From Armatimonadota bacterium (GTDB lineage Bacteria; Armatimonadota; Fimbriimonadia; Fimbriimonadales; Fimbriimonadaceae), in NCBI GenBank assembly GCA_027451905.1, contig DAIDHV010000002.1:1-64000 (forward strand): 64,000 nt of DNA, in the 5' to 3' direction. Below are positions 6,642 through 9,368 of the stretch, piece after piece. The notes beneath the pieces are model-generated. The model was not told the DNA's origin and searched no databases. It saw only the letters and a list, made by a program, of their open reading frames with translations. Position numbers and translations under genes: made by a program. How positions within the stretch are numbered: position 1 is the first letter of the stretch; each line of letters starts with the position of its first letter.

Positions 6642-7388
6642 TCATCGCACGTGAATGGAGTTTGCAATAGACTCCAAATCGCTCTCACTGTGCTTGCCAA
6701 CCAAGACCAACTGGTACCCTCCTTGCCTCCAGTTCAGGCAATTGCATGGGCCCACGTTTCCAACCCAGTAGTGGCTTTGAGCAGTCCCATCAATGGGATG
6801 AACACCCTGAATTGGGTTGCTGCTGTTGACGATAAACAAAGTGTATGGGTCCGATGGGTTTCCGAGAATAACCCGCGCTGCAGGAACGCCTCCCATGGAA
6901 CCGACATCTTCCTTCAGTACCCGCAATGGTGCGGATTGCTGAGCCGGTGAGCCAACGATTAACCTTTTAAGCCAACTTGCAATTCCCTGCGGTGCATTAT
7001 CAAGGGTGGGGGAAACTAATCCCGCGCTGTAGCCAGGAACATCTGAAAGGCCCACAGAATTGCCATGAAGGCGAGTATAAGCTCCTGCTCCGACGATGGT
7101 TAAGAGGACAATTCCGCACAAGCCCCATGCATATCGGCTGACAAACTGATCCGCTTTTTTGACTCGATCAATTTCTGCAAGGCGGCTTTTTACCTGAATC
7201 ATCAATTCAGGCTGAGCTTCCTTGGGAAGCTGAGACACTGCTAGCTTGATGTTGACAATAGAAGCGTAGTGGATTGTTAATTGAGGATTTGCTTGAACAA
7301 GTTTCTGAATCTCCTCTGCTTTGGCTTTAGTTAAATGCCCATCGGCCAACGCGTTTAATTCTTCAATCAAGGCTTCTTTGTCTGTCAT
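6642..7388 (-). CDS. Probable membrane anti-sigma factor for the adjacent ECF sigma factor
   Basis: The 248-residue protein has a cytoplasmic helical N-terminus (1-80), a single membrane helix (about 87-104) and an extracytoplasmic domain ending with a segment containing YQLVLVGKHSESDLESIANSI. That ending resembles the sensor domains of DUF4367/MucB-like anti-sigma factors. It starts 2 bp after the sigma gene stop, the classic sigma/anti-sigma pairing. The N-terminal domain lacks the HxxxCxxC zinc motif of ZAS anti-sigma factors, so it would use a zinc-free fold. A CNC sequence in the outer domain could respond to redox or metal. Role is inferred from context and topology. Confidence 0.75.
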   Translation of the reverse strand: MTDKEALIEELNALADGHLTKAKAEEIQKLVQANPQLTIHYASIVNIKLAVSQLPKEAQPELMIQVKSRLAEIDRVKKADQFVSRYAWGLCGIVLLTIVGAGAYTRLHGNSVGLSDVPGYSAGLVSPTLDNAPQGIASWLKRLIVGSPAQQSAPLRVLKEDVGSMGGVPAARVILGNPSDPYTLFIVNSSNPIQGVHPIDGTAQSHYWVGNVGPCNCLNWRQGGYQLVLVGKHSESDLESIANSIHVR

Positions 7389-7390
7389 AT

Positions 7391-7960
7391 TTATCTTTCG
7401 TTCCTTATGTATCCTTGCTCCAAGGCAAATTCAGTCAAAGCATTTCTTAGCTCTGCGCGACCACGAGAGATTCTGCTTCTGACGGTTCCAATAGGAACCC
7501 CCGTCACTTCTGCAATTTCTTCGTAGCTCATGCCTTCAATATCGCAAAGTATGATTGCGTTTCTACGATCATCCGGCAATTTCGCTAAAGCGTTCTCTAC
7601 TTCACCTTGTAACATGCTTGAAGTTAGAAAGGTTCCGGGATCATCAATTTCTTCAGAAACTGGTTCTTTTGCGGAATCATCATCCAACGAAGTTGTGTAT
7701 GCCGACCGTTTCCGTTTACGATAATCGTTAATGTACTGGTTGTGAATGATCGTAAAAAACCAAGATTTAAAGTTCTTGCCATCAAACTTGTCGAAGGCTT
7801 CATAGGCTCTGACGGCTGCCGTCTGCAGTAAATCTGAAGCGTCATCATTAGAGCGCGTCAATTTCTTGGCATAGTTAAAGGCTGCATCAAAAACATTTGC
7901 CAAATGCCCTTCAAAGGCCTCCTTTTGCCGGGATTTGCTACCCCATTTGCCTAACAGCAT
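7391..7960 (-). CDS. ECF-family RNA polymerase sigma factor
   Basis: At 189 residues this is standard for a SigE/RpoE-type ECF factor. Region 2 spans about 20-95 (with DDASDLLQTAAVRAYEAFDKFD and the -10 recognition segment FKSWFFTIIHNQYINDYRKRKR). Region 4 spans about 125-180 (LPDDRRNAIILCDIEGMSYEEIA and the helix-turn-helix VPIGTVRSRISRGRAEL). It directs polymerase to stress or envelope promoters when released by the membrane anti-sigma encoded immediately downstream. A TATACT box lies 9 bp before the ATG, and AGGGAAAG just before the ATG could be a ribosome site. The divergent neighbour is the cytochrome b/c fusion gene. Confidence 0.93.
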   Translation of the reverse strand: MLLGKWGSKSRQKEAFEGHLANVFDAAFNYAKKLTRSNDDASDLLQTAAVRAYEAFDKFDGKNFKSWFFTIIHNQYINDYRKRKRSAYTTSLDDDSAKEPVSEEIDDPGTFLTSSMLQGEVENALAKLPDDRRNAIILCDIEGMSYEEIAEVTGVPIGTVRSRISRGRAELRNALTEFALEQGYIRNER

Positions 7961-8111: not shown

Positions 8112-9368
8112 ATGAAACTCTTCACCGAAAAGAATCTCAGGGCCCTCGAGGTTGGCCTTGCCTTGCAAATTGCACTCCAGTTCTTGGTTGGAGGACTTCT
8201 TGCAACCCAATATCATTCGGGCAGCCAAGCCTATGCTTCCGTGCACGACATGAGGCAGGTTAAGTTTTGGAGCATCCTTGCCGGCATTCATTATTGGGGA
8301 AGTTCATTACTGATTCTATCCAGCCTTGCGACCCTTTTCGTTATGATCTTTACAGATCGATATCGGGTTAAAATCGCAGAGTGGTATGGAGCCCTCGTCG
8401 TCTTTTTGGGTGCCTATGGCGCCCAGCTGTCCGGAAACGTTTTGCCGATGGATCGCCACGGAGTTCAAACCGCCAATATCGAAACGGGCTTGATGTCTTC
8501 GGTACCCATTATTGGTAAAGCGATGCACAATTTTGCCTTAGCTGGCACCACATTCTCTCCTGCTACTGCTTCAAGATGGTTCCTCTTTCATGAAATCCTC
8601 ATTACGATTCTGCTTTTGGTCGGGGGAATCATGCTACTAAAAGACAAGTTCAAATCTGGCAAAGAATTGATCACTACGGTTGCATTTGCGCCAATTGCCT
8701 TCTTAATTGCCTTGTCTCTTATCGTGCCTCCTCCTCTAGGAAATCCGGCAGCCCCCATTGATTACACTCAATTTGAGGCCTATGTGAGTTGGTACACCTG
8801 GCCCCTCCATGGCATGCTTCAAGTTTTTACAAGGCTGAATCCCAACTGGGGCTTTCTTGGCTTTGGAGTTGTTCCAGGATTGTTTGTAGCCTATTTGCTT
8901 GTTGCCCCCTTTGCAGGCAAGAAATTCAAAAAAGCGGTGGCTCAGGCGATACCAACTTTTTTCTGTCTTGCCTTTCTTGCCGCCGGACTTGCCTATGGTG
9001 GACCCATTGCAAAACTCACCGGAAATCGAGATCCGGCTCCAATCCAGGCGATTGCGGCTCCAACAACCCCAATGACGACGGCGGATTTGAACGCGGCAAA
9101 ACTGGGCAGAGGCTTGTTCAATAGTCAGGGCTGTTCAGGCTGCCATGGGAAAGATGGAGACAATGGATCGGTAGGTCCTACCCTCACCAACGAGCAGCAG
9201 CTTGAATCAGCAACCTGGGTTGCCAAATTTATACGGAACCCCAAATCTATCCGCCCAAGCTCTACCATGCCTGCGTTTTCAAACCTCACCACCACCCAGG
9301 CAAACCAGATTGCAGCTTGGATTTGTCTAACTCCTGCCGAAAAGAAGGCAATCCAGTCGGGAAAGTAG
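8112..9368 (+). CDS. Cytochrome b (b6/subunit IV-like) fused to a cytochrome c domain
   Basis: This 418-residue membrane protein has a cytochrome b core of about 7-8 helices (1-300), followed by a C-terminal c-type heme domain with CSGCH at 341-345 and a likely axial Met in TMPAF (M386). It should carry electrons from a quinol to a c heme in the membrane. Helix B has H60 in LAGIHYWGSS and helix D has H160 in SRWFLFHEIL, 100 residues apart as in canonical cytochrome b. The partners expected 14 residues later are T74 and M174, so only one b heme appears to be ligated. The Qo-site PEWY is VSWY (225-228), without the Glu. No Rieske gene is nearby. The partner complex is unknown. Confidence 0.85.
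   Translation: MKLFTEKNLRALEVGLALQIALQFLVGGLLATQYHSGSQAYASVHDMRQVKFWSILAGIHYWGSSLLILSSLATLFVMIFTDRYRVKIAEWYGALVVFLGAYGAQLSGNVLPMDRHGVQTANIETGLMSSVPIIGKAMHNFALAGTTFSPATASRWFLFHEILITILLLVGGIMLLKDKFKSGKELITTVAFAPIAFLIALSLIVPPPLGNPAAPIDYTQFEAYVSWYTWPLHGMLQVFTRLNPNWGFLGFGVVPGLFVAYLLVAPFAGKKFKKAVAQAIPTFFCLAFLAAGLAYGGPIAKLTGNRDPAPIQAIAAPTTPMTTADLNAAKLGRGLFNSQGCSGCHGKDGDNGSVGPTLTNEQQLESATWVAKFIRNPKSIRPSSTMPAFSNLTTTQANQIAAWICLTPAEKKAIQSGK

Follow-up and report, generated by a model that had tools for sequence, protein, structure and literature searches.

The Q cycle depends on a parting of the electrons of quinol, one of which goes to the Rieske cluster and the other through hemes bL and bH. A gene at positions 8112 to 9368 of the window (the whole 64,000-nucleotide stretch of Armatimonadota DNA analysed here) was predicted from its sequence to encode a cytochrome b that keeps the ligands of only one b heme, has an altered PEWY motif and carries a fused cytochrome c. 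This raises the question of whether heme bH has really been lost from this protein and its relatives, and what such a protein might do.

Gene, fold and distribution of the fusion protein

The open reading frame is as described in the original prediction, with a cytochrome b followed by a C-terminal CSGCH motif (residues 341 to 345). Pfam recognizes both parts, Cytochrome_B at residues 16 to 169 (E = 1.7e-14) and Cytochrome_CBB3 at residues 328 to 404 (E = 6.6e-9). The gene and its parts are as follows.

8112..9368, + strand: mono-heme cytochrome b–cytochrome c fusion gene (ATG start, 418 amino acids plus stop; open reading frame and Pfam; orthologues in 29 genomes)
8112..8996, + strand: cytochrome b domain, residues 1–295 (helices A–D, E, F and G in the AlphaFold2 model)
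8997..9077, + strand: linker, residues 296–322 (low confidence in the AlphaFold2 model, residues 312–318 under 50)
9078..9365, + strand: cytochrome c domain, residues 323–418 (Pfam Cytochrome_CBB3; AlphaFold2 model)
9132..9146, + strand: heme c attachment motif C341-SG-C344-H345 (CSGCH), invariant in the family
9267..9269, + strand: M386, presumed sixth ligand of heme c, invariant in the family

The AlphaFold2 model, built from nine sequences (mean pLDDT 82, pTM 0.78), contains helices corresponding to A–G of cytochrome b together with the cd1/cd2 and ef helices, followed by the cytochrome c domain. The count of transmembrane helices would place this fused domain on the P side. The best fold matches in Foldseek are bc1 cytochrome b chains (E about 3e-8, over 320–380 columns), and the best PDB sequence match of a profile of the mono-heme family is cytochrome b6 (2zt9, E = 8e-38).

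We searched 113 genomes of the class Fimbriimonadia and 291 genomes of the phylum Armatimonadota. The gene is present in 29 of the 113 Fimbriimonadia genomes, as 28 full-length copies including the window's own and one copy split by a frame change (G094), and the family spans more than 20 genera. The bacteria that carry it make up a small family and come from soil and fresh water. Beyond Fimbriimonadia, no mono-heme member was recognised among the 291 phylum genomes, where the sole outside match read (L089) is a canonical fusion with all four His. A single-protein search of named genomes gave no match to the mono-heme fusion, and plasmids and viral contigs searched for the family gave none. 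A sub-alignment search matched eight named MAGs, the named contigs being those of Fimbriimonadaceae or Armatimonadota. The 25 aligned proteins are highly diverged, with about 24–37% identity to P0001, and their frames are open.

Heme ligands and the outer quinone site

We counted residues in 25 aligned family members and in six canonical relatives from the same phylum. The positions that bear on the two b hemes are as follows.

8289..8291, + strand: H60, heme bL ligand in helix B (invariant, 25/25; also in the canonical relatives)
8589..8591, + strand: H160, heme bL ligand in helix D (invariant, 25/25; aligned to yeast H183)
8331..8333, + strand: T74, lost heme bH ligand position in helix B, +14 (His in 6/6 canonical relatives and 5/25 family members)
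8631..8636, + strand: M174-L175, lost heme bH ligand positions in helix D (His absent from all 25 members; found at +15 in 6/6 canonical relatives)

The predicted bL pair, H60 and H160, 100 residues apart, is thus found throughout the family. For the second pair, predicted as T74 and M174, the helix-B position at +14 was borne out, but the helix-D equivalent had to be corrected to L175; neither residue is a His. A bc1-type spacing of +14 leads to M174 and a b6-type spacing of +15 to L175. All six canonical relatives have the b6-like spacing of 15, and this position is equivalent to yeast H197 (in an alignment with yeast cytochrome b fragments). T74 and M174 were also considered as heme ligands in their own right, and were rejected because neither is conserved.

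Homologues with the His restored, which would suggest a local error, were sought across the family. No member has a His at the helix-D position, at either +14 or +15 (0/25, versus 6/6 canonical relatives at +15). The helix-B His, present in all six canonical relatives, is absent in 20 of the 25 members; it is retained in L002, L005, L007, L076 and L081, and the residue otherwise varies. This loss of bH ligands across the family is far beyond chance and does not reflect an error confined to one locus. The glycines at the two heme sites follow the same division: those of the bL site are kept (helix A, 23/24; helix C, 25/25), whereas those of the bH site are mostly gone (6/22 in helix A and 1/25 in helix C), and all are present in 6/6 canonical relatives. 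Also missing, in 22 of 25 members, is a conserved Arg that lies three positions ahead of the first His. Because the ligands and, independently, the heme-packing glycines split alike, the supported reading is a single b heme, namely bL, with the bH site lost as predicted and the loss shared by the aligned orthologues. The five members bearing H74 may hold a five-coordinate second heme.

The outer quinone (Qo) site has been altered at the following positions.

8784..8795, + strand: V225-S-W-Y228, PEWY equivalent without the Glu (Glu kept in only 4/25 members)
8457..8459, + strand: H116 in LPxDxH, Qo-side, at the yeast M139 position, new to the family (His in 23/25; Lys/Leu in canonical relatives; mapped via L021)
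8481..8483, + strand: E124, Qo-side, at the yeast I147 position, new to the family (Glu in 25/25; Gly in 6/6 canonical relatives)
8808..8810, + strand: H233, at +7 from the PEWY Glu, yeast Y279 / bovine Y278, new to the family (His in 25/25; Phe/Tyr in canonical relatives)

The predicted VSWY, without the Glu, lies at residues 225 to 228, although the family places this change later than the loss of heme bH. The Glu is absent in 21 of 25 members, with VSWY in the window, P[SNAG]WY or similar in other Fimbriimonadaceae and PMWY in family f5, and it is retained, as PEWY, in the four earliest-branching members (L010, L012, L015 and L020), which nevertheless lack bH. Other newly conserved residues are T120 (24/25), D217 (24/24) and P231 (25/25). 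On yeast cytochrome b fragments, E124 aligns directly to I147, and positions 116, 120 and 233 correspond, via the canonical L021, to M139, G143 and Y279. PMC6467933 quotes all four of these yeast positions in its list of QoI-resistance sites. An outer quinone site that is altered and yet conserved argues for use and against decay.

The b-domain tree sets the 25 mono-heme proteins apart as one clade, divided from the six canonical ones by a branch with 100/100 support. When the tree is rooted on the canonical proteins, the four members that retain PEWY are the first to split off, and the 21 members without the Glu group together (support 100/99). The loss of bH and the gain of E124 and H233 therefore preceded the loss of the PEWY Glu, and the order can be read from the tree: bH gone and E124 and H233 fixed, and only then the Glu lost.

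Rieske partner and cellular setting

No Rieske motif was found near the gene at any of the 29 mono-heme loci (423 kb in six frames; some loci are two copies of one species), in a scan that detected 6 of 7 control loci. The canonical fusions L021, L022 and L089 directly follow a Rieske gene; this upstream position was read at L050 (by Pfam), L110 and L089. Six host genomes (G020, G037, G039, G042, G050 and G051) lack a bc-type Rieske protein; their Rieske proteins are of the oxygenase or ferredoxin type only, as typed by length, motif and context, and in G051 by length alone. The window genome (G000) has one Rieske gene (G000:C9:31857-32114), which lies within a molybdopterin oxidoreductase operon. 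After these locus and genome searches, a linked or unlinked Rieske partner for the mono-heme fusion was rejected. An anatomy of one b heme, one c heme and no Rieske protein is very probable for the family.

In the operon around the G000 Rieske gene (L051:3705-10382), the TAT-like Rieske protein is encoded together with a molybdopterin oxidoreductase, a 4Fe-4S protein, a Crp-type regulator and two further proteins without assignment. Rieske proteins similar to that of G000 occur in G006, G026 and G054.

G000 encodes alternative complex III beside a COX2-fused cytochrome c (caa3-type) oxidase, and also a bd oxidase; alternative complex III and caa3 form the main chain of the hosts. Fimbriimonas ginsengisoli has MK-10 and MK-11, and according to its genome paper its chain includes complexes I and II, cytochrome c oxidase and bd (PMC4072686). 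The fusion gene is patchily present beside a complete ACIII–caa3 chain, and is therefore non-essential.

The neighbours of the orthologues, which the original prediction proposed to inspect, include no Rieske gene at the 29 loci, and the conserved ones are signalling or envelope genes, none of them respiratory. In six Fimbriimonadaceae genomes (L031 and L033–L037), the divergent neighbour of the fusion gene encodes a conserved membrane protein in which an N-terminal domain of unknown type is joined to a Guanylate_cyc (class III cyclase) domain. In family f5 (L040, L042 and L046–L048), the genes upstream encode a GAF histidine kinase, a LytR-CpsA-Psr protein, a protein of about 270 amino acids that no Pfam family matches and also, at four of these five loci, a PilZ protein, and in some loci these genes overlap by a few bases. 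In the window itself, positions 6642–7960 (− strand) encode, divergently from the fusion gene, an ECF sigma factor together with a protein laid out like an anti-sigma factor, with one likely membrane helix and no Pfam match; none of the other loci read showed this pairing. Farther upstream, positions 841–2151 (− strand) encode a Ctp-type S41 peptidase with a PDZ domain, in which the S41 match covers a short stretch (319–433). Elsewhere, at L023–L028 (genomes G024, G010, G003, G032, G021 and G016), a weak match to cytochrome bd subunit I occurs about 1 kb downstream of a canonical cytochrome b, an arrangement that is possibly a linked bc/bd-like gene cluster.

Possible functions and known systems

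From this anatomy, we consider it an even chance that the protein is an auxiliary, linear menaquinol:cytochrome c oxidoreductase that works without a Q cycle. Menaquinol would bind at the rebuilt Qo-like site on the outer (P) side, and its two electrons would pass, one after the other, through heme bL to the tethered cytochrome c, which would hand them on to another cytochrome c, either soluble or part of an oxidase. Both protons would leave to the P side, probably carried by H116, E124 and H233, which would stand in for the PEWY Glu. Because heme bH and the Rieske protein are both absent, there would be no bifurcation and no Q cycle, so the energy yield would be about one charge per electron at most. 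The hosts have alternative complex III as their main quinol:cytochrome c enzyme, and the fusion would give them, beside it, a simple route that conserves less energy. We infer the quinol substrate, the electron direction, the proton path and the partner alike.

Three considerations weigh against this linear mechanism: canonical Qo oxidation requires the Rieske protein as first acceptor, whereas here two electrons would have to leave through a single low-potential heme; the conserved neighbours of the gene are not respiratory; and the gene is patchily distributed beside a complete ACIII–caa3 chain. In its favour are the complete cytochrome b fold with the cd and ef regions that form Qo, the retention of the bL and heme c ligands beside the lost bH site, the new residues at Qo positions, the conservation of a single clade over more than 20 genera, the lack of a Rieske gene at the 29 loci, the presence of ACIII and caa3 in G000, and the Rhodobacter capsulatus mutant H212N, in which removal of one bH ligand abolishes Qi function while heme bL is still reduced (PMC4330944). 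The chance falls just short of even that the family is a natural class of quinol oxidases, in which a Rieske-free, bH-free Qo site sends both electrons of menaquinol by way of a single heme bL into the tethered cytochrome c and a Glu/His proton path has newly arisen. If active, the family would be a natural test of which Qo parts are needed for quinol oxidation and of how short circuits are controlled; if the proposal is true, it would show how a cytochrome b fold can lose electron bifurcation.

The linear mechanism has two main rivals: the protein could be a redox sensor, or it could let electrons out on the P side to some other partner. As a sensor, the protein would use bL and the Qo-like site to sense the quinone pool or the periplasmic redox state and would signal to partners encoded next to it, with little flux. 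The divergent class III cyclase-like membrane protein in six Fimbriimonadaceae copies, the GAF histidine kinase, LytR-CpsA-Psr, unknown and PilZ genes that the fusion gene follows in family f5, and the ECF sigma factor gene divergently upstream in the window all fit such a role. However, these neighbours vary between families, no signalling domain is fused to the cytochrome b–c protein, and a His/Met-ligated cytochrome c domain is typical of electron carriers, which leaves a sensor unlikely. An outlet for periplasmic reductases, or reverse flow from cytochrome c, superoxide or another donor to quinone, would make the protein something other than an oxidase feeder. CybB, a P-side quinone protein of the cytochrome b561 type with superoxide:quinone activity, illustrates that proteins of this kind exist, and a small c domain could serve several partners. 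Against this, there is no correlation with cytochrome c peroxidase genes (PF03150) across 61 genomes, no reductase is linked at the loci read, and transfer from cytochrome c to menaquinone is energetically uphill; we regard this role as quite unlikely.

The remaining readings would bring the protein back to a canonical complex, working or decayed. A still-bifurcating cytochrome bc complex would draw its Rieske protein from elsewhere in the genome and hold an unrecognised second heme, for which one could point to the single Rieske gene of G000 and to the helix-B His in 5 of 25 members, which might hold a five-coordinate heme. That Rieske gene sits in a molybdopterin oxidoreductase operon, however, the helix-D ligand is absent in all members and the bH glycines are mostly gone, and the six host genomes without a bc-type Rieske protein already contradict this reading, making it very improbable. 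Decay of a canonical bc complex into something like a pseudogene could account for the loss of bH, the Rieske protein and the PEWY Glu, and for the split copy in G094, but it is barely credible for 25 highly diverged, open-frame proteins that keep, without exception, the ligands of bL and heme c as well as E124 and H233.

Among known systems, the fusion resembles the Rieske/cytochrome b complexes bc1 and b6f in its fold, its bL ligand pair and its cd and ef Qo regions. Unlike these complexes, which have two b hemes held by four His, a Rieske protein as a rule encoded with cytochrome b and a PEWY-type Glu at Qo, the family lacks the helix-D bH His in 25/25 and the helix-B bH His in 20/25 members, has a Rieske gene at 0/29 loci and keeps the Glu in 4/25 members (VSWY in the window), with a fused cytochrome c and a rebuilt Qo site. 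Because two b hemes and a Rieske partner were both looked for and neither was found, the fusion is not a member of this group, although it would work in a similar way. The canonical Armatimonadota fusions L021, L022 and L089 likewise join cytochrome b and a C-terminal cytochrome c in one chain, but they differ in having the complete set of four b-heme His, a PEWY motif and, immediately before the fusion gene, a gene for a Rieske protein. Alternative complex III, present in the same genomes, shares the role suggested for the fusion, that of a Rieske-free menaquinol:cytochrome c oxidoreductase. It nevertheless consists of unrelated proteins, with NrfD-type membrane subunits and no b heme; the fusion has no homology to ActB, ActC or ActF, being of another fold and other families, and G000 encodes alternative complex III separately. 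Searches of the open-licence literature turned up no natural cytochrome b of this fold that lacks bH. A counterpart in the bH site is R. capsulatus H212N (PMC4330944), in which the site is likewise removed and bL kept, although that protein is engineered at one residue and Rieske-dependent rather than a natural family. Laboratory bH-less mutants lose Qi function and the normal cycle, whereas here evolution has removed both bH and the Rieske protein across a clade.
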